Source: a virus. Taken from it: a DNA stretch of 21,577 nt. The stretch covers positions 1 through 21,577 of IMG/VR virus record IMGVR_UViG_3300018039_000032. One strand, written 5' to 3'. Below are positions 5,654 to 18,321 of the stretch, one piece after another. The notes under the pieces were generated by a model. The model had not been told where the DNA came from. It did not search any database and saw only the letters and a list, made by a program, of their open reading frames with translations. Positions within the stretch are counted from its first letter, which is position 1. The number at the start of each line of letters is the position of its first letter. The position numbers and the translations under genes are program-made.

Positions 5654-6742
5654 ATGAAAAGGTTTAGAAACATTCTTTCTGAGGTCGCAGAGCCCAAAGG
5701 CGCCGAGGAAAAGAAATTTAAAGACCAACACCAAGTAGAGATTATTGATCCGCTAGGTTTGGGTGACCAGGAAGGTTACAAGCCAAAGGCAATGCCGAAA
5801 AAGCGATTGGCTGATTATATGAAAGGCCAGGATGAAACGGCTTATGATCAGGCTCATTCTCAGAGAAAAGAAGGTCAGGCAAAACTTGATCGGGCTCCTA
5901 AGTATGAATCTACTGAATTGAACGAGGATCCATCTGAAGAGATTCCTATGATGGTCGGTCAACTAAGATTCATTGAATATGCTGCAAGAGAAATCGAGGA
6001 CTTTATTACGGATACCACAATGGATCCAGAAGAATGGTTCCAGAACAAATTGGCCGCGGCTCACGGCGAATTGAAAACACTTCATGCATATGCCGAAGGT
6101 AAGAGATATGAACCTCCGCATGATGATGACGATGATGAAGATATCATTAAATTGGCGGCTGGTTATCCAATGTATTCATCATATTATGAGGCATTGGAAG
6201 AAGGTACTGTGGACCATGGACATTATACATTTACGGTCGGCCCTAAGAAAAAGGGTGGCAGTGAAGGTGCTCCATCTCACGTAGCGGCAAAAAGATCAAA
6301 GATGACAAAGGCTGGAATCCCACATCACAATGAACCAGGTGAATACGGCGATACAGTTCATGTCAAAGTTACAAATAATAAAACAGGTGCCACAACTAAT
6401 CACCACGTATATCAAAGAGACACAGATAAGGACTCAGCAGAAGCTCTAATGTCTACACGTACTGTTGGTGCTAATAAATCAGCTGATGCAGCGGCTCATG
6501 AAAAAGCCTTACATCATTATTTGTCAGGTAAAAGACCATCGTCTCTAAAGGAAGGTGTGAAGCCTGGGATGATGAGGTTGAAAGATGGCAAATCAGTCAA
6601 GGTATCTGCTCAGGAAGCTAAAATGCTAAATGACGTAATGAAATCTCTAAATCCTAAAAACCGTAAGGAAATGGAATCCACAATGATGAAGGATTCGCAA
6701 GGATTTAAGGACATTATTGCATTTGCAAAGGAAGCTGAATAA
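5654..6742 (+). CDS. Modular prohead core / virion structural protein in the T4 67-68 position
   Basis: A 362-residue protein in the place of T4 genes 67 and 68 (prohead core proteins), between portal and protease. Its N-terminus MKRFRNILSEV is of a type I associate with structural proteins of marine T4-like phages. Four regions are visible: a basic/acidic N-region (1-95); a helical module with QLRFIEYAAREIEDFI and PEEWFQNKLAAAHGEL (about 100-150), ending in a run of D/E (157-163); a His/Lys-rich module (184-295); and a C-terminal module (301-362) with KEMESTMMKDSQGFKDIIAFAKE. The last two borders fall at LEE|G (183/184) and LKE|G (300/301), which fit the T4 gp21 cleavage rule. ATG 5654 follows AGGA at 5642-5645. 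The role as a core protein is inferred from position and cleavage sites, not from clear similarity to gp67 or gp68. Confidence 0.75.
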   Translation: MKRFRNILSEVAEPKGAEEKKFKDQHQVEIIDPLGLGDQEGYKPKAMPKKRLADYMKGQDETAYDQAHSQRKEGQAKLDRAPKYESTELNEDPSEEIPMMVGQLRFIEYAAREIEDFITDTTMDPEEWFQNKLAAAHGELKTLHAYAEGKRYEPPHDDDDDEDIIKLAAGYPMYSSYYEALEEGTVDHGHYTFTVGPKKKGGSEGAPSHVAAKRSKMTKAGIPHHNEPGEYGDTVHVKVTNNKTGATTNHHVYQRDTDKDSAEALMSTRTVGANKSADAAAHEKALHHYLSGKRPSSLKEGVKPGMMRLKDGKSVKVSAQEAKMLNDVMKSLNPKNRKEMESTMMKDSQGFKDIIAFAKEAE

Positions 6743-6783: not shown

Positions 6784-7476
6784 ATGAAGCTTATAACCGA
6801 GGTTACAGATTGCGAGGTACTTACCGAAGCAAGTGAGGAAGGCAAAAAGTCTTACTTCATCGAAGGTATTTTTATGCAAGGCGATATCAAGAATCGTAAC
6901 GGTCGAGTATACGCTAGTGACATTCTTGACAAGGAAATGCAAAGATACCAAAAAGATTTTATTAACGAAAAAAGATCGCTTGGTGAACTTGGCCACCCAG
7001 ATGGGCCACAGATCAACGGCGACAGAGTTTCGCACCTCATTACTGAGTTGAAAAGAGATGGTTCTAACTTTTATGGTAAGGCCAAAATTCTTGGAACTCC
7101 AATGGGTGAGATTGTTAAAACCTTCATTGATGAAGGGGTTAAAATTGGTGTATCCACAAGAGGCTTAGGTTCCGTTAAACAAACTAAAGATGGTATTATG
7201 GAAGTACAACCAGACTTTCATCTTTCAACTGTTGACATCGTAACTGATCCTTCTGCTCCTAGCGCCTTTGTAAATGGAATCATGGAAAATGTGGAATACT
7301 ATTATGACATTGCTTCTAACGCTTGGTTGCCTGCTCAGGTCCAAGAAGAAGTTGCAGAGGTTATTGAGGAAATACAGAAGGAAGCTAAAGTACGTTATAA
7401 CAGAATCACACATACGATCGATGAAAGTGCTGCGGCACGGATGTTTGAAACGTTTATTTCTTCGTTAAAAAAGTGA
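6784..7476 (+). CDS. gp21: Prohead core protease (T4 gp21-like)
   Basis: Serine protease of the herpesvirus-assemblin/T4 gp21 type. It digests the scaffold and trims the capsid proteins after prohead assembly. It has 230 residues (T4 gp21 has 212). The catalytic His lies in SLGELGHPDG (H71) and the catalytic Ser in KIGVSTRGLGS (S124). IKNRNGRVY and HLSTVDIVTDPSAPSAFVNGI are also typical of phage prohead proteases. A possible self-cleavage site, LTE|A after residue 15, equals the one predicted in the capsid protein. ATG 6784 has an AAAGG-type site at about 6769-6774. It has its own late promoter and precedes its scaffold and capsid substrates. Confidence 0.95.
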   Translation: MKLITEVTDCEVLTEASEEGKKSYFIEGIFMQGDIKNRNGRVYASDILDKEMQRYQKDFINEKRSLGELGHPDGPQINGDRVSHLITELKRDGSNFYGKAKILGTPMGEIVKTFIDEGVKIGVSTRGLGSVKQTKDGIMEVQPDFHLSTVDIVTDPSAPSAFVNGIMENVEYYYDIASNAWLPAQVQEEVAEVIEEIQKEAKVRYNRITHTIDESAAARMFETFISSLKK

Positions 7477-7531: not shown

Positions 7532-8509
7532 ATGGCAGAAGATAAAGGAAAGCGATTCGTTGCCGATGACGGTGTTTCAAGCGTACCAGAGCCTGTAACC
7601 CCAGCCGGTGGCGAAGACAAAAAGAAGAAAGGCAAGCCAGAAGAAAAAATGGATGCCGTAACACCTGCTGCTGGCGATAAAGCCGGTGGTGTGAAGGAAG
7701 ATGCTGAAGTTGAAGCAACTGATGAGCAAATCGAAGTTGTGGAAGAAGAGGTAATTGAGGTTGAGGAATCAATCCAACAAATTATCGAAGGCATGGATCT
7801 TTCAGAAGAATTTAAATCTAAGATTTCCGTTGTTTTTGAAGCGGCAGTTAATGAGTCTGTAAAGGCTCGTGTTCAGAAAATCGAAGAAGAGCTTAACGAA
7901 AAGCTTGAAACTGAATTGTCTGAAGCTGTTGAATCAAAGGTTACAGAGATCGTTGATAATCTTGATTCCTATCTTGACTATGTAGTCAATGAATGGATGA
8001 CAGAGAATGAAGTTGCTATTGAAGCCGGAATCAAGGTAGAAATGGCAGAATCGCTTATGGATGGATTGAAAGATCTATTCACTGAGCATAACATCGAAAT
8101 CGATGACGAGAAGTTTGATATCGTCAAAGATTTGGAAGAGGAATTGGCAGAATCTAATGATCGTGCCAATGAGGTCGTTAATGAAAATATTGAGCTCACA
8201 AAAGAGATTGCCTCTCTAAAATGTGCTAAAGTTTTTGAGGAATCTACTTCCGATCTGACTGTCACTCAAAAAGAGAGACTACGTACTCTTGCTGAAACAC
8301 TTGATACGTCAGACATTGATGAGTATACTCAAAACCTCAACACAATTAGGGAGACCTTCGTCTCGGAGTCAACCTCGGCTACGACAACAGAAGATGTTCT
8401 TGATGAGGAAGATGAGATTATCACAGAAGAACAGGAAACGGTGAAGAAGACAGTCTCTGACTATGCTTCTGTCAACGCTCTTGTTGAGGCGCTCAACGCA
8501 AGAAAATAA
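7532..8509 (+). CDS. gp22: Prohead scaffolding core protein (T4 gp22-like)
   Basis: Main component of the scaffold around which the capsid shell assembles; in T4 it is degraded by gp21 before packaging. It has 325 residues (T4 gp22 has 269). The N-terminal 60 residues are low complexity (K, P, A, G, D/E). From about 60 to 230 it is strongly acidic and helical, with probable coiled coil (KIEEELNEKLETELSEAVES; KDLEEELAESNDRANEVV). The C-terminus ends in SVNALVEALNARK. Several (I/L)xE sites fit gp21 cleavage, including IIE|G, LSE|A, LAE|S and LVE|A. ATG 7532 follows AGAGGAG at about 7519-7525. Identity rests on composition, the helical core and its place between 21 and 23. Confidence 0.92.
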   Translation: MAEDKGKRFVADDGVSSVPEPVTPAGGEDKKKKGKPEEKMDAVTPAAGDKAGGVKEDAEVEATDEQIEVVEEEVIEVEESIQQIIEGMDLSEEFKSKISVVFEAAVNESVKARVQKIEEELNEKLETELSEAVESKVTEIVDNLDSYLDYVVNEWMTENEVAIEAGIKVEMAESLMDGLKDLFTEHNIEIDDEKFDIVKDLEEELAESNDRANEVVNENIELTKEIASLKCAKVFEESTSDLTVTQKERLRTLAETLDTSDIDEYTQNLNTIRETFVSESTSATTTEDVLDEEDEIITEEQETVKKTVSDYASVNALVEALNARK

Positions 8510-8525
8510 TTGAAAATTAAATTTT

Positions 8526-8533
8526 TATAAATA
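8526..8533 (+). promoter_or_regulatory. Late promoter, TATAAATA, upstream of major capsid gene
   Basis: Exact octamer in the extended form AATTTTTATAAATATT, 17 bp after the gene 22 stop and 37 bp before the gene 23 ATG. Confidence 0.87.
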
Positions 8534-8569
8534 TTAACAGTAATCAAATAATAACAAGGAGATAGAAAT

Positions 8570-9901
8570 ATGTCAGAGACAAACTATCAAAAGCTTGTGA
8601 AAAAGTGGGGGCCAATCCTTGAGCACGAATCTTTTTCACCTATTCAGGACTCTCACCGTAAGTCCGTAACGGCTACAATTCTGGAGAACACAGAAAAAGC
8701 CCTACAGGAATCTGGTGATCTTTCTGCTAACATGAGCATGCTTACAGAAGCTCCTACCAATGATGCTGGTACTGGTGGCTTCGGTTCAGGCTCTCCTGAA
8801 GGTGGACCAACTGCTGGTTATGACCCAGTGTTGATTTCACTTGTTCGCCGTTCTATGCCAAACTTGATTGCATATGATATCTGTGGTGTTCAGCCAATGA
8901 CTGGCCCAACAGGTCTTATCTTTGCAATGCGTTCACGCTATGACACTCAAGCGGGTAACGAGGCATTCTATGGTGAGGCAGATACAACTCACGCAGGTAC
9001 AGGTGCACAGGTTGGTTCAACTGGTGGTGCAGGCACAGGTAATACTTCACTGTTTGACACAGGTGCAGGTATGGCAACTGCTGCGGCTGAAGCTCTAGGC
9101 GACGGTAACGGTACAAACTATGCAGAAATGGCATTCTCTATTGAGAAGGTTACTGTTGCTGCTAAGTCACGTGCGTTGAAAGCAGAATACACAACTGAAC
9201 TTGCTCAGGACCTTAAGGCAGTTCATGGCTTGGATGCAGAATCTGAGTTGGCGAACATCCTTCAGTCTGAAATCCTGACTGAGATCAACCGTGAAGTTGT
9301 TCGTACAATCTACACCACTGCTTCTGCTGGTGCTACAAACACTGCTTCTTCAGGCATCTTTGACTTGGATGTGGATGCTAACGGCCGTTGGTCTGTTGAG
9401 AAGTTCAAAGGACTTATGTTCCAAATTGAACAAGAAGCTAACCAAATCGCAAAAGACACAAGACGTGGAAAAGGTAACATGGTTATCTGTTCTTCAGATG
9501 TAGCTTCTGCTCTTCAAATGGCTGGTGTACTTGACTATGCACCTGCTCTTAATGGTAACTCTTTGGAAGTTGATGACACAGGCAACACATTTGCTGGTGT
9601 TCTTAACGGCCGCTATCGTGTATACATTGACCCATATGCTGGTTCAAACTACATGGTTGTTGGTTACAAAGGTTCATCTGCATTTGATGCAGGCTTGTTC
9701 TACTGCCCATACGTTCCTCTACAGATGGTCCGTGCCATCGGTGAGAACAGCTTCCAGCCAAAAATCGGGTTCAAAACTCGCTACGGCATGGTTGCAAACC
9801 CATTCGCGGAAGGCGCAGTTCAAGATGCACAAGGTCTTGGTGCTCTTACAGCTAATGCTAACAAGTACTACCGTCGTGTACGTGTGGCAAACTTGTTCTG
9901 A
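8570..9901 (+). CDS. gp23: Major capsid protein precursor (T4 gp23-like)
   Basis: HK97-fold shell protein of the head. It has 443 residues (T4 gp23 has 521). VRRSMPNLIAYDICGVQPMTGPTGLIFAMRSRY matches T4 gp23 almost position for position, and the C-terminus KIGFKTRYGMVANPF...YYRRVRVANLF is also typical. The N-terminal 60 residues are probably removed by gp21: LTE|A after E60 fits the (I/L)xE rule and corresponds to T4 cleavage after residue 65. ATG 8570 follows AAGGAG at 8556-8561. The reading frame ends in three consecutive in-frame stops (TGA TAA TAA), and a strong terminator follows. Codon use is more C-rich than in its neighbours, as expected for the most abundant virion protein. No gene 24 (vertex) copy follows it here. 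Confidence 0.98.
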   Translation: MSETNYQKLVKKWGPILEHESFSPIQDSHRKSVTATILENTEKALQESGDLSANMSMLTEAPTNDAGTGGFGSGSPEGGPTAGYDPVLISLVRRSMPNLIAYDICGVQPMTGPTGLIFAMRSRYDTQAGNEAFYGEADTTHAGTGAQVGSTGGAGTGNTSLFDTGAGMATAAAEALGDGNGTNYAEMAFSIEKVTVAAKSRALKAEYTTELAQDLKAVHGLDAESELANILQSEILTEINREVVRTIYTTASAGATNTASSGIFDLDVDANGRWSVEKFKGLMFQIEQEANQIAKDTRRGKGNMVICSSDVASALQMAGVLDYAPALNGNSLEVDDTGNTFAGVLNGRYRVYIDPYAGSNYMVVGYKGSSAFDAGLFYCPYVPLQMVRAIGENSFQPKIGFKTRYGMVANPFAEGAVQDAQGLGALTANANKYYRRVRVANLF

Positions 9902-10373: not shown

Positions 10374-10456
10374 TTATTCATTTCTGTTACTGCGATAATA
10401 TAAAAGCCAATTATAATTACGGCTAAGATACTAATTGCTGTTGCTACTTCACCCAT
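10370..10456 (-). CDS. Very small single-pass membrane protein, 28 aa
   Basis: Encodes MGEVATAISILAVIIIGFYI followed by IAVTEMNK: nearly the whole protein is one membrane helix with a short charged tail. It starts 8 nt inside the end of the DsbA-like gene and ends in an ATGA overlap with the next membrane gene, so it is held by coupling on both sides. The ribosome-binding site (GCGAG) is weak. Its size makes it uncertain, but the junctions and clean hydrophobic profile favour a real gene. Confidence 0.5.
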   Translation of the reverse strand: MGEVATAISILAVIIIGFYIIAVTEMNK

Positions 10457-10751
10457 TGTCACTCGCAATCTGGCGTTCGAATGGTGCCATTACTGCTTCG
10501 GCAAATTCCATAAATTCCTCATTTCGAGCCGCCTCTTCCATGAGATTGGACGCATGATAAATTTTTGCTAATTTATTAAACTCTCGTTTGGGAACACCAA
10601 TTTCATCGAGCATTTTTTGTGCAATATCTTTTTGCAGATCTTTTTCTGCTGACACTCGAGTCATTGAATCTGACATTTCACGCAGAGCATTTTGAATATC
10701 CTTGCGATCCTTGTCTGTAATTGTCGTGGGTAGACCACCATTATTATCCAT
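10449..10751 (-). CDS. dsbA: DsbA-like double-stranded DNA-binding protein
   Basis: The 100-residue product resembles T4 DsbA (89 residues), a double-stranded-DNA-binding protein reported to bind late-promoter regions. The match is best in the C-terminal part: DEIGVPKREFNKLAKIYHAS aligns with T4 DELGVDGKMFNRLLALYHKD, followed by an acidic EEFMEFAEAVM corresponding to EEVVELYDTVF. The N-terminus (MDNNGGLPTTITDKDRKDIQ) is helical and differs. ATG 10751 follows TAAGGAG (spacing about 5). It is near the end of a long minus-strand operon and overlaps the following 28-aa gene. The assignment is by motif memory; a profile search would settle it. Confidence 0.72.
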   Translation of the reverse strand: MDNNGGLPTTITDKDRKDIQNALREMSDSMTRVSAEKDLQKDIAQKMLDEIGVPKREFNKLAKIYHASNLMEEAARNEEFMEFAEAVMAPFERQIASDNG

Positions 10752-11547: not shown

Positions 11548-12084
11548 TTAGTTATTTACCTCAAGAGGGTTACCACTCTCGTCGCAAGGTGTAAGAATAA
11601 TTGGACAATGAATTTCAACAAAGAAAATATCTTCATCATAACCGAGGTCATTTACACCTTCGTTGTAATTTTCTTGCCAGGCCTCTTCAAGATCCTCTAC
11701 GTATTCATCAATGTTTGCATGAACTTCATCCTTAGAAGGACCCCATGCATGAATATGCCACTCCTCTGAAATGCCATCCCAGGTTTCAATCAGTTCATAA
11801 TCATAATCATCAAGCTCGTGATAAGTCGTTTCCTCATCATCGACAGGCATTAAGGCTTCTCGGCACTCGTCATAGCCGCCATAATCCTCTACAAGGATAT
11901 CTCGGTTTTCAGCCCAGGCGTCAAGTTCCTCGTTTGTCTCTGGAACCTGAATTAAATATTTCCCCCATCGCCAACATGTTTCTAATGTGGCAAATACGGT
12001 GGTACCATCCTCAAGTGTTTTCTTGAAACGCTCAGATTCATATACGGATTTTTTCCATTTAGGTTCAAGTGTATAATATCTCAC
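11548..12084 (-). CDS. Hypothetical acidic phage protein, 178 aa, GTG start
   Basis: Not recognised. Strongly acidic (DDEETTYHELDDYDYELIE; DEYVEDLEEAWQENYNEG) with a basic, aromatic N-terminus (MRYYTLEPKWKKSVYESERF), which could suit a protein or nucleic-acid mimic role, though nothing proves it. The only start upstream of the conserved-looking N-terminus is GTG 12084, placed 6 nt after GGAG; it overlaps the upstream stop as GTGA. The ATG two bases earlier is followed at once by TGA and ends the upstream gene. Confidence 0.8.
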   Translation of the reverse strand: MRYYTLEPKWKKSVYESERFKKTLEDGTTVFATLETCWRWGKYLIQVPETNEELDAWAENRDILVEDYGGYDECREALMPVDDEETTYHELDDYDYELIETWDGISEEWHIHAWGPSKDEVHANIDEYVEDLEEAWQENYNEGVNDLGYDEDIFFVEIHCPIILTPCDESGNPLEVNN

Positions 12085-12320
12085 ATCAAACTCCCAGTAA
12101 AGTTTTCAGGACCAGGATACATGGATTCATCCTTTGATCCAATTTTAACAACAACACATTTTCCAGCAGTCTGAACTGCACACTTTTTTGCCTCGTCAAC
12201 TGTGTCAAATTCCTTACGAAACGTTTTAGATGTTTTTAAAAAACGACTAGTTTTTGTTTCAGTGACCCATACCCAGCCAATATCTGGACGATACATTTTT
12301 ATACCATATTTGTCACTCAT
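12081..12320 (-). CDS. Hypothetical phage protein, 79 aa
   Basis: Function unknown. Begins MSDKYGIKMYRPDIGWVWVT and has a basic middle (TSRFLKTSKTFRKEF) followed by FDTVDEAKKCAVQTAGKCVVVKIG. The pattern 'DTVDEAK..A' with flanking strands resembles small phage proteins that read out a residue code over a beta-alpha-beta fold, similar to the products at 19076 and 20438. The longer frame to 12371 would add an unlikely hydrophobic head that overlaps the upstream gene completely. I chose ATG 12320, which overlaps the end of the 58-aa gene by 8 nt and follows GAAGGTGATTATGAAG. Confidence 0.75.
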   Translation of the reverse strand: MSDKYGIKMYRPDIGWVWVTETKTSRFLKTSKTFRKEFDTVDEAKKCAVQTAGKCVVVKIGSKDESMYPGPENFTGSLM

Positions 12321-12489
12321 CTTCATAATCACCTTCATAATAAGGCTCAGAATCATAAGCAAAATAATCACGCACTACATCATCTACAAAATTAATAGAG
12401 GTATCTGTATATTTTGCAATTTCGTTATTAGGAACACCTTGCTGTGCAAGCTCTTGAATGTGTACAATTACATTACCCATTTTACTCAT
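12313..12489 (-). CDS. Small HTH-like protein, 58 aa
   Basis: Residues about 10-40 (HIQELAQQGVPNNEIAKYTD followed by TSINFVDDVV) have the spacing of a helix-turn-helix: helix, G turn, 'NNEIAKYTDTS', recognition-type helix. The C-terminal tail is very acidic (DSEPYYEGDYEDE). ATG 12489 follows TTAGGAG with a 5-nt spacer, and the stop overlaps the next start by 8 nt. Small proteins of this pattern are frequent in T4-like marine phages, where their job is unknown. A regulator is one possibility. Confidence 0.72.
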   Translation of the reverse strand: MSKMGNVIVHIQELAQQGVPNNEIAKYTDTSINFVDDVVRDYFAYDSEPYYEGDYEDE

Positions 12490-12497
12490 AACATCTC

Positions 12498-12782
12498 CTA
12501 AATCTGAATAGGTTCGTTTCCTGTCATTGTGACCATCTTTTTTATAATAACATCAATGTCGTTCTCTGTCAACCATCCTTTTATGGTATCACCAGCTTCA
12601 GTAATTCCAGGTGCCTCCACCATAGAACCATCCTTAAAAACACCCACTTCCCAGAGATTTTGTTGGTGGCCGTAGCTTGCCTCATTACGAACAATACTAA
12701 GTTCCCACCTTCCAAAATCTAAAATTACCTGTTCTCCAATGGGAGAATTTGTTTTTCTTTTTTCAAAATCAGAAAATTTCAT
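12498..12782 (-). CDS. Hypothetical phage protein, 94 aa
   Basis: Not recognised by name. Reads MKFSDFEKRKTNSPIGEQVI, then LDFGRWELSIVRNEASYGHQ and LWEVGVFKDGSMVEAPGI, ending in a helix around GDTIKGWLTENDIDVIIKKM. The pattern of a curved beta sheet (FGRWELSIVRN...YEVGVF) plus a C-terminal helix is that of a small conserved phage protein. ATG 12782 overlaps the AbrB-like stop as ATGA and follows GAGG by 4 nt. Confidence 0.82.
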   Translation of the reverse strand: MKFSDFEKRKTNSPIGEQVILDFGRWELSIVRNEASYGHQQNLWEVGVFKDGSMVEAPGITEAGDTIKGWLTENDIDVIIKKMVTMTGNEPIQI

Positions 12783-13015
12783 TCTACCTCAAACCCAGGA
12801 TTATCGAGGATTTTTTGTGCTCTCATCTCCTCGTACTCCTCTCTGGTCTGCTCCTTTTTACGGAATACCAAGGAACCATTATCGGTTTCCCATTCAATTG
12901 TATCGCCAGGTCTTAAACCTATCTCCTCACATATTTCCTCTGGAATAGTAAAGATAACGTTGTTTGCATCGTTTGGATCATCCTGGAATAAATCTTCTAC
13001 TTTATATGTGGTCAT
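12779..13015 (-). CDS. AbrB/SpoVT-type DNA-binding protein
   Basis: A 78-residue protein with a swapped-hairpin AbrB-type domain near its start: NNVIFTIPEEICEEIGLRPG followed by DTIEWETDNGSLVFRK (about residues 18-53). This is the usual 'xxIPxxI...LGLxxGDxV' pattern of antitoxins and transition-state regulators. The C-terminal helix (EQTREEYEEMRAQKILDNPG) may carry a partner-binding region. No toxin-like gene is evident next to it. ATG 13015 is preferred over ATG 13027: it follows GGTGG and overlaps the upstream stop as TAATG. Role inferred: a DNA-binding regulator, possibly of this phage's own operon. Confidence 0.78.
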   Translation of the reverse strand: MTTYKVEDLFQDDPNDANNVIFTIPEEICEEIGLRPGDTIEWETDNGSLVFRKKEQTREEYEEMRAQKILDNPGFEVE

Positions 13016-16171: not shown

Positions 16172-17314
16172 TTACTCCAGAATATCTGCAATTTTATGGG
16201 CTAGTTGACGGAACCACATTTCGTCGTGGCCTCGAGTTGTCTCCGCAGCAGTTCCAATTCGGATGCCACTTGTTTCCATAAATGATCTAGGATCATTAGG
16301 AATGCCATTTTTATTTACTGTAATATCACCAACAGTTTCAAGAAGATCTGCTGCTTCACGACCACTATGTCTACTGTCCTTTAGATCAATCAGAATGATA
16401 TGACTATCGGTTCCACCAGTCTGTACCGTCAATTCACGTTGACGTAGGGTGTCACACATTGCCTTTGCATTACGTACGACTTGAGCCGCATATTCTTTAA
16501 ACTCAGGTGTGTTTGCTTCAATAAAACATTGAGCCTTTGCGGCAATGATATTCATTAGTGGACCGCCTTGAGTTCCTGGGAAAACAGCACTATTAATCTT
16601 TTTGGTAAAGGCATTATCGTTCCAAAGAATAATACCACCACGAGGCCCTCGTAGCGTTTTATGAGTCGTACTGGTTACGATATCTGCATAATCACAAGGA
16701 TTATCATAAACTCCACCAGCAATCAGCCCTGAATAATGAGCCATATCAACCATCAGTAGAGCACCAACCTGGTCTGCAATAACACGGAACGCTTCCCAAT
16801 CAATCTGCCGAGGATATGCGGAAGCACCAGCAATAATCATTGCTGGGTTAACTTCTGCTGCTTGCCGCATTATTGCATCATAGTCCAACCAACCAGCATC
16901 ATCAACACCATAATGATGTGCTTCGTAGTTTTTACCAGAAATATTTACTGGAGCACCGTGAGATAAGTGACCGCCAGATGCTAGATCCATACCGAGGATC
17001 TTATCACCTGGTTTTAGAAATGCTTGAAATGCAGCAACATTGGCGTTTGCACCAGAGTGTGGTTGGACGTTTGCGAATTTTACATCATAGATTTCCTTCA
17101 GTTGGTCAATCGCCAACCGTTCAATCTCATCCATATGCATACAGCCATTATAATACCGCTTTCCAGGATAACCTTCGGCATATTTGTTTGTAAAACAACT
17201 TCCTGCTAAATCCATGACAGCATCACTTGCAAAATTTTCACTTGCGATTAGTTCAATTGTTGTGTGTTGTCTGTCTGCTTCTCGTGCAAGAATTGCACTA
17301 ATTCTGCTGTCCAT
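16172..17314 (-). CDS. glyA: Serine hydroxymethyltransferase, compact phage form
   Basis: PLP-dependent enzyme that interconverts serine + tetrahydrofolate with glycine + 5,10-methylene-THF, the one-carbon donor for thymidylate or hydroxymethyl-pyrimidine synthesis. It has 380 residues; E. coli GlyA has 417. The active-site signature VTSTTHKTLRGPRGG contains the Schiff-base lysine (K219; E. coli K229). DMAHYSGL supplies the PLP-binding Asp (D190), KYAEGYPGKRYYNGC the catalytic Glu, and SGIRIGT the carboxylate-binding Arg. Compared with E. coli, about 15 N-terminal residues and about 25 C-terminal residues (the last helix region) are missing, while all catalytic motifs remain. ATG 17314 has a GGAG 10 nt upstream. 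It lies between the sulfotransferase unit and two conserved phage genes. Probably functional; phage role inferred as nucleotide supply. Confidence 0.96.
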   Translation of the reverse strand: MDSRISAILAREADRQHTTIELIASENFASDAVMDLAGSCFTNKYAEGYPGKRYYNGCMHMDEIERLAIDQLKEIYDVKFANVQPHSGANANVAAFQAFLKPGDKILGMDLASGGHLSHGAPVNISGKNYEAHHYGVDDAGWLDYDAIMRQAAEVNPAMIIAGASAYPRQIDWEAFRVIADQVGALLMVDMAHYSGLIAGGVYDNPCDYADIVTSTTHKTLRGPRGGIILWNDNAFTKKINSAVFPGTQGGPLMNIIAAKAQCFIEANTPEFKEYAAQVVRNAKAMCDTLRQRELTVQTGGTDSHIILIDLKDSRHSGREAADLLETVGDITVNKNGIPNDPRSFMETSGIRIGTAAETTRGHDEMWFRQLAHKIADILE

Positions 17315-17332: not shown

Positions 17333-17632
17333 TTAAAAAGAAAAATTAAGCTGTTTTGGCCCTCTCGGATTAAAGGATTCTACATTAGGTTTTGCAAGAG
17401 GCATTGTTGTACTCGTGTCGTGATAATCACCGTCTGCTGAATAAACTCTAGTAACGACATCTTTATATACAGTACCATTTCGCCAACGATATGTCGACAT
17501 TTCCCTACGAATTACACCTTCAGTGTCAGAATCAAAAGCTGATTTAAATGGTCCTTCTTGCATTGATAGTTCCTCCCTTTGAGTTTCTTCCTTATATCGC
17601 CGAAGCATATAATCGTAGTATCCTTCTCGCAT
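17333..17632 (-). CDS. Hypothetical protein, 99 aa, coupled to the sulfotransferase
   Basis: Not recognised. A charged, helical N-terminus (MREGYYDYMLRRYKEETQRE) is followed by a beta-rich part (STYRWRNGTVYKDVVTRVYS) and a Pro/Asn-rich tail ending NFSF. There is no membrane segment. Its ATG overlaps the sulfotransferase stop as TAATG and follows AAAAGGA by 6 nt, so the two are probably made together. It may be a structural or accessory partner, but nothing in the sequence shows this. Confidence 0.78.
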   Translation of the reverse strand: MREGYYDYMLRRYKEETQREELSMQEGPFKSAFDSDTEGVIRREMSTYRWRNGTVYKDVVTRVYSADGDYHDTSTTMPLAKPNVESFNPRGPKQLNFSF

Positions 17633-18321
17633 TAAAAATCCTTTTCGTATCTAAACCAATCAAAGTCTCGTTTAAAATAATTGTATACCATATCTTTTGT
17701 TTCCTCGTCGTAATACTCCTGCCATGGCCGATGTTTTGACGTGTTTTCATGTGGAAGTGGCATATCTCTATTACACAATCTCTGTATGTGTTTAAAATCC
17801 TCTTCTAAATGTTCCATCCTTAAAACCCATGTTGGTCTTTTTTTAGGATGCAGAAACCATACCTGGCCTACCAAAAGATGAAAATTCGGATGTCTAACTT
17901 TACCACCCGTTGGTTGTTTTAGAACCTCTCTTACAAAATTTTTAAACGATCCATCATATATATTCTCTGGGCGAGGAGGGATTGGCTGACCTTTAAATTT
18001 TGCCTTATTTTCGGACATTTTTTGAAGTCTATCCATTTGTTCCCTCCAAAAATGTTGCCAACTCACCATTCTCGAATAGGGATTCCTAGACACTAAAAAG
18101 TATCTGTAATCCTGCCCAGGATATTTTTTTAAAAAATTATTTTCAAATTCTAAACACGAAGCATGTTTTGCGGTAAAGTCTCTTCCAATTCTTTCATGTG
18201 GCTGTGCACGGTACCGAGTGTCAAATCCTTCTCGATTTGTTACCCATCTGTCTATTGACATTCCCCCATTCTTAGGGATGTGGATAAAAGCCACTTTTGT
18301 GTCAGGAAAGTATATAGTCAA
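17632..18321 (-). CDS. Sulfotransferase (HNK-1 / Sulfotransfer_2-type), TTG start
   Basis: A 229-residue protein with the PAPS-binding motifs of membrane-type carbohydrate sulfotransferases: the 5'-phosphosulfate loop FIHIPKNGGMSI (residues 13-23) and the 3'-phosphate motif VSRNPYSRMVSW (77-88). The C-terminal YNYFKRDFDWFRY matches the usual 'Y..DF..F.Y' end of this family. There is no signal peptide, so it acts in the cytoplasm. The likely reaction is transfer of sulfate from PAPS to a sugar or glycan; the acceptor is unknown. The start is TTG 18321, 7 nt after AGAGG and directly after the upstream stop; the next ATG would delete the PAPS loop. No PAPS-synthesis gene is in the window, so host PAPS would be needed. 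Confidence 0.87.
   Translation of the reverse strand: MTIYFPDTKVAFIHIPKNGGMSIDRWVTNREGFDTRYRAQPHERIGRDFTAKHASCLEFENNFLKKYPGQDYRYFLVSRNPYSRMVSWQHFWREQMDRLQKMSENKAKFKGQPIPPRPENIYDGSFKNFVREVLKQPTGGKVRHPNFHLLVGQVWFLHPKKRPTWVLRMEHLEEDFKHIQRLCNRDMPLPHENTSKHRPWQEYYDEETKDMVYNYFKRDFDWFRYEKDF

Follow-up and report, generated by a model that had tools for sequence, protein, structure and literature searches.

A modular protein encoded between the portal and prohead protease genes of a marine T4-like phage: a probable internal head protein precursor with a capsid-targeting-type leader

Gene neighborhood and head protease

The DNA analyzed here (21,577 nucleotides, hereafter the window) comes from an uncultured marine T4-like phage. 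Its genes run in the order terminase, sheath, tube, portal, X, gp21, gp22 and gp23, which is the T4 order. X is a modular protein of 362 residues (5654..6742, + strand), encoded between the genes for the portal protein gp20 and the prohead protease gp21. As the earlier note on this DNA had pointed out, the place is that of genes 67 and 68 in T4, and the gene order bears this out. Homologues of X occupy the same position wherever a locus holds gp20, X and gp21 together. Three other contigs carry the X open reading frame (ORF) at 100% identity, which excludes an assembly error.

The adjoining gene (6784..7476, +) encodes a gp21 prohead protease of the Peptidase_S77 family (Pfam PF03420, 1.3e-34), which is the presumed cutter of X; its residues H71, S124 and D151 are conserved in an alignment with T4 gp21. 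A co-encoded S77 prohead protease is one mark of a T4-type processed internal head protein. Local gp21 specificity was calibrated on gp23: LTE60|A61 in the window (8741..8749, +) is the counterpart of the known T4 gp23 site LTE65|A, and gp23 of X-bearing loci shows L-x-E|(A/T/S). The N-terminus of window gp21 (6784-6830) also carries MKLITE|V and VLTE|A, where the protease might process itself; LIE9 of T4 gp21 is a site of this kind.

In many relatives, a small ORF of 75-93 amino acids that is absent from the window lies between X and gp21. It is of at least two unrelated kinds (L025 3714-3959, L033 2770-3027 and similar loci; L numbers designate loci). We considered whether it is a split-off C-terminal module of X and rejected this, as it is a different protein. 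Elsewhere, on the - strand, the window holds a complete serine hydroxymethyltransferase gene (16172-17314; PF00464, 3.9e-145), a metabolic gene in a phage, as well as genes for a sulfotransferase family protein (17632-18321; PF03567, 1.5e-11) and a DsbA-type late transcription regulator (10449-10751; PF11126). According to one paper, no dsbA homologue was known in cyanomyoviruses (PMC2984593).

The X family

A scan of viral contigs with gp21 as its anchor yielded 80 loci, a set biased towards close gp21 relatives. In nearly all of them an X homologue stands directly before gp21 or before the small unrelated ORF. Family members range from about 200 to 860 residues and share three parts: the N-terminus, consisting of the leader and following segment (MKxFxxxLSEVAxPKxxEEKxFKDQH); a middle (M) block (EEIPMMxxQLxFI...DPEEWxQNKL), which is missing from many mosaic members; and a C module (KLKDGxSVKVS...GFxEILxFAREAL). 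The modules between the shared parts recur in differing order and number.

Minimal X proteins occur in the isolated phages phiM12 (135 amino acids) and RHph_I1_18 (239 amino acids), both confirmed by profile comparison; the RHph_I1_18 link was initially found in a loose search (E 0.6). PHROG_26626 matched residues 1-72 of X (1.1e-4) and 12 of 21 family members, and tblastn with a hand-written consensus reached phiM12 at 1e-12. Searches of isolated phages by tblastn with X itself and with the X of L080 gave no match at 1e-5. Judged by sequence, the nearest named relative of X is gene 070 of Sinorhizobium phage phiM12 (PHROG_26626).

A leader of capsid-targeting type

X begins with MKRFRNILSE (5654..5683, +), ending at the predicted site LSE10|V11. 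Positions 4, 7, 8 and 10 carry the same residue types as the capsid-targeting sequence (CTS) of T4 IPIII, in register; in IPIII, positions 4 and 7 serve targeting and positions 8 and 10 serve processing (PMC9026906). X thus has an N-terminal CTS of about ten residues as a pattern match, as distinct from a packaging assay. The pattern is selective: the fetched loci offered 2165 distinct start positions, of which it matched 37, namely 35 X genes, gp154 of Synechococcus phage S-CREM2 and one small ORF of Caulobacter phage Cr30. Within the family, few residues are conserved as well as E10 and E300.

The gp154 protein is a cytidylyltransferase that begins with MKNFSSFLTE|A and that mass spectrometry reportedly found in S-CREM2 virions (PMC10665884); S-SM1 virions also contained a cytidylyltransferase (PMC3037559). 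By analogy, this virion protein with an X-type leader comes closest to experimental support for X. The S-CREM2 locus (L117) encodes two virion-reported proteins in all, at 8309-9169 and 12043-12936: the cytidylyltransferase, whose CTS-type leader is perfect, and a modular protein with (I/L)SE|(A/G) borders. The Cr30 ORF (L115, 7143-7463; 106 amino acids, MKTFKQFFNE|SLTE|S...) has weak matches to ADP-ribosyltransferases of PARP/KptA type and may be a packaged enzyme, recalling T4 Alt. Leader-like copies inside proteins were only marginally above chance (p about 0.03-0.06), and we do not rely on them as general evidence.

Modules and candidate cleavage sites of X

T4 gp21 processing follows an (I/L)xE rule (PMC9026906), and X has exactly four [IL]xE motifs, ending at residues 10, 91, 183 and 300 (LSE10|V, LNE91|D, LEE183|G184 and LKE300|G301). 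The earlier note had claimed the last two as sites that fit the rule, and both are present. It had listed LSE10 and LNE91 as mere extra candidates; both exist, and the borders they mark equal or surpass the one at 183, 91 being at least as good. The residue after the cut (P1') is Val at site 10 and Asp at site 91, which differ from the A/T/S of gp23. Conservation of the four sites is graded, being strong at 300 and 10, moderate at 91 and weak at 183.

The N module (residues 11-91; 5684..5926, +) contains the conserved segment VAxPKxxEEKxFKDQH, seen in the family alignment and in the PHROG_26626 match, and ends in LNE91. The M module (residues 92-183; 5927..6202, +), delimited by AlphaFold2 (AF2), family alignments and a match in Pelagibacter phage HTVC008M, has a two-helix core at 93-148 (EEIPMM...DPEEWFQNKL) followed by an Asp run, and ends in LEE183; residues 92-183 carry a net charge of -17 with a pI of 4.2. 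In HTVC008M the M block lies elsewhere in the genome (hhalign E 4.7e-9), and S-SM2_109 contains a weaker match. The third module (residues 184-300; 6203..6553, +) is basic and His-rich (11 His, net +5, pI 9.5) and ends in LKE300. It is a lineage-specific insert confined to loci at least 82% identical, and no viral contig showed it in a different context. The C module (residues 301-362; 6554..6739, +), conserved across the family, is predicted by AF2 to form two strands and three helices. Visibly different modules had been proposed to meet at these borders, and the acidic, basic and small, mostly helical modules are indeed distinct; the Asp run, however, lies at about 157-161 and ends some 20 residues before 183 instead of at that site.

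AF2, run on X with 21 sequences, was confident in two regions, 93-148 and 301-362, and otherwise only in a short segment near 16-25 (pLDDT mostly 66-78 at residues 101-150 and about 80-87 at 301-360). The two confident domains start at 93 and 301, just past E91 and E300. Of five models of residues 184-300 on their own, only the best was good, with pLDDT 82 and pTM 0.79. Neither the C module nor the 184-300 module had a convincing fold match among PDB or viral structures (best Z 3.2 and 4.7), and we assign no function to them.

Site number, site position and conservation

The number of (I/L)xE motifs in X is at chance level and is no evidence by itself, because composition predicts that number. 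X has 2 strict [IL]xE|[AGS] motifs where shuffling predicts 0.7, and it has as many mirror-image motifs. Across the family the mirror motif is nearly as frequent as the motif (56 vs 46). Motif counts, not clearly above the mirror motif in either the window or the family, were accordingly rejected as evidence, and so was the distance of loose [ILVMF]xE motifs to module starts, for which the mirror performs equally. The case for the sites rests on their positions and conservation, not on their number. In a post-hoc test, the probability that four random positions fall at most 3 residues before both AF2 domain starts was about 0.0008. Family-wide, well-supported homology starts lay near strict sites (0.29 vs 0.07) and less so near the mirror motif (0.14 vs 0.07); with the C junction masked, the signal was modest (0.15 vs 0.05, p 0.004; mirror 0.12). 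The association of strict sites with well-supported module starts is therefore specific, but the C border supplies much of it.

The LKE300|G301 junction (6545..6556, +) is the best supported predicted gp21 site. In 28 clusters at 70% identity, which are not independent events, the C junction has Glu at P1 in 26, I/L at P3 in 21 and A/S/G at P1' in 24; P2 and P4 are free, and the upstream modules are unrelated. The strict motif is found there in 17 of the 28, against 0.5% per position. The C border fits the local protease, because gp23 of the same loci shows the L-x-E|(A/T/S) pattern. Variants occur in one clade (YGE|S, AYE|S or SYE|G in L060, L073 and L083), L007 and L009 keep the site as MVE|G despite an 8-residue insertion, and in the 28-cluster comparison it is absent from L070 and L078. 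Inside the C module, the family has 4 [IL]xE motifs versus 11.2 expected from shuffled copies (P 0.007).

At the border corresponding to 91, nearly every member with an EEIPMM block shows [LIM]xE|(D/N/S/A) ahead of it. L020 and L044 encode the chain as two genes, the second of which starts with a leader; near the border where that gene begins, the fused protein of L007 and L009 carries a leader-like RSFKSFLEE|AP, a few residues upstream of the EEIPMM block. Site 183 is the weakest of the four. It is conserved in close relatives only (ESLEE|G in L007 and L009), because its downstream module occurs only there; in L011, which does not have the 184-300 module, the junction reads IDE|I. The earlier note had made a lack of conservation in homologues a ground for refutation, and the comparison did not refute it: E10 and E300 come out well, the pattern at 300 being kept over unrelated upstream modules, and 183 does so in close relatives only.

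Among the insert modules of the family, the RNDVVKAL one is preceded by LKE|G in L031 and L044 but stands at the start of an ORF in L045, with the leader MKKFSDIYE|S. In the contexts listed, all 7 copies of a SKKTL module and all 8 of a KKPV module are preceded by (I/L/V)xE, directly or a few residues away, with L/I or T/V at P1'.

Interpretation

From the observed anatomy of X, its conservation pattern, its domain borders and the co-encoded protease we infer packaging and cleavage: X is probably the precursor of prohead core or internal proteins, with a leader that targets it to the capsid, and gp21 would cut it into a few pieces. The ten-residue leader would bring X into the prohead core. 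On shell closure, gp21 would cut after (I/L)xE at the module borders, that is, after residues 10, 91, 183 and 300, detaching the leader and freeing the N module, the acidic helical M module, the basic His-rich module and the conserved C module. The basic module would be the part that varies from lineage to lineage; in the wider family, leader and C module would be retained and the intervening modules gained, lost, duplicated or moved to leader-bearing genes. By analogy with T4, variable basic modules may stay with the DNA and acidic pieces leave. The idea of a polyprotein cut at module borders is thus partly upheld: the borders agree with AF2 domains, and the leader at 1-10 had been overlooked.

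An alternative that we regard as unlikely is that X is a disposable core protein standing in for T4 gp67, gp68 or gp22, cut only so that its pieces can leave the head; the borders would then hold sites owing to the accessibility of linkers, and the pieces would be functionless after release. X shares the gene place of 67 and 68, its M piece is very acidic, and most fragments of the cleaved T4 core proteins leave the head (PMC5694885, PMC9026906). However, T4 gp22 has 20 [ILV]xE in 269 residues and marine gp22s are likewise rich, whereas X has few, at borders; the swapping of modules between lineages is more like variable cargo; and the modular S-CREM2 gp160 was found in mature virions. Still less probable is a head, neck or DNA-binding role for X without cleavage, with (I/L)xE-(A/G) tetrads that are helix caps or linkers copied with modules in recombination, since, although E-rich linkers such as EEVEQIDE yield motif and mirror alike and the window count is at chance level, the C border is constrained only at P3, P1 and P1', in the gp21 pattern and over variable P2, P4 and upstream sequence, one module can stand behind quite different linkers or behind an N-terminal leader, and the X leader is in register with the T4 CTS.

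A broader reading can be offered tentatively, which we hold to be possible but on the whole doubtful: marine T4-like phages would load their heads by cassette, shuffling a pool of small folded modules behind a leader with gp21 sites between them, and a single protein would enter the head intact and be cut in the capsid into several different internal proteins delivered into the host. In the part of the literature that was searched, we met no previous account of a modular precursor of this sort. Marine myovirus virions contain many hypothetical proteins without an assigned role (PMC3037559, PMC10665884). A leader and a site rule readable in the sequence would pick out the packaged cargo among such proteins and predict the ends of their mature forms, which could be checked against semi-tryptic peptides in existing virion mass spectra; it would also show T4-like phages changing head content through module swaps.

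Comparison with known systems

The phiM12 protein gp070 (135 amino acids, hypothetical) is encoded directly upstream of gp21, as X is, and has the leader MKSFKQLVE, the N segment and the C module, which is also present in RHph_I1_18. As at the X junction, LLE|G immediately precedes its C module. Unlike X, it is a minimal form, with neither the M block nor insert modules.

T4 gp67 and gp68 share with X the place between genes 20 and 21, (I/L)xE sites, and acidic and basic parts; they are two small genes, whereas X is one modular protein. The description of X as prohead-core-type accordingly stands by position, and no sequence relation to either protein was detectable: X did not match the family models of gp67 (PF17634, phrog_1064), which T4 gp67 itself matches, or gp68 (phrog_1049). 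Homology to gp68 was rejected on a profile comparison probability of 0.2%. Cyanophages have been reported to lack gp67 and gp68 (PMC2984593).

Internal head proteins of phiKZ-like phages and SPN3US, processed by gp175/gp245, resemble X in having long propeptides and several sites cut after Glu; they differ in A/S-x-E specificity and unrelated sequences, and the parts of the source available to us report no shuffled-module architecture (PMC5694885).

Four proteins, S-CREM2 gp160, S-SM2_109 (T4-GC119), a 682-residue protein of Cr30 and a 1006-residue protein of P-TIM68, are module mosaics like X, with (I/L)xE|(A/G/S) at many of their borders, and some have modules in common with the X family. 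Unlike X, they are encoded elsewhere in the genome and start without the X leader. The virion-detected, modular gp160 has LSE|A and ISE|G borders, and in S-SM2_109 a Pfam DUF192 domain (339-441) is flanked by VKE329|S and IEE443|G. The latter gene (L118, 2207-4333) lies between gp16 and gp17 and combines an M-block-like segment with DUF192 and DUF6321. The repeated-module Cr30 protein (L115, KF301602, 3795-5843), away from gp20-gp21, has INE|A, INE|S, LEE|S and IHE|S joints and several SKKTL-type copies. Neighboring module-mosaic genes also occur in Methylophilales phage Melnitz-3 (L112, 863-3007) and in HTVC008M (L111, 950-2647); they include an EF-hand-like DIDNDGDVD module and adjoin a probable nucleotidase gene.

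T4 IPI-IPIII and Alt share with X the ten-residue leader, with an aromatic residue at position 4, a hydrophobic one at 7, I/L at 8 and Glu at 10 (PMC9026906). The residue after the leader is Val in X and Ala in the T4 internal proteins. In T4 there is one gene per cargo, whereas X carries several modules behind one leader.
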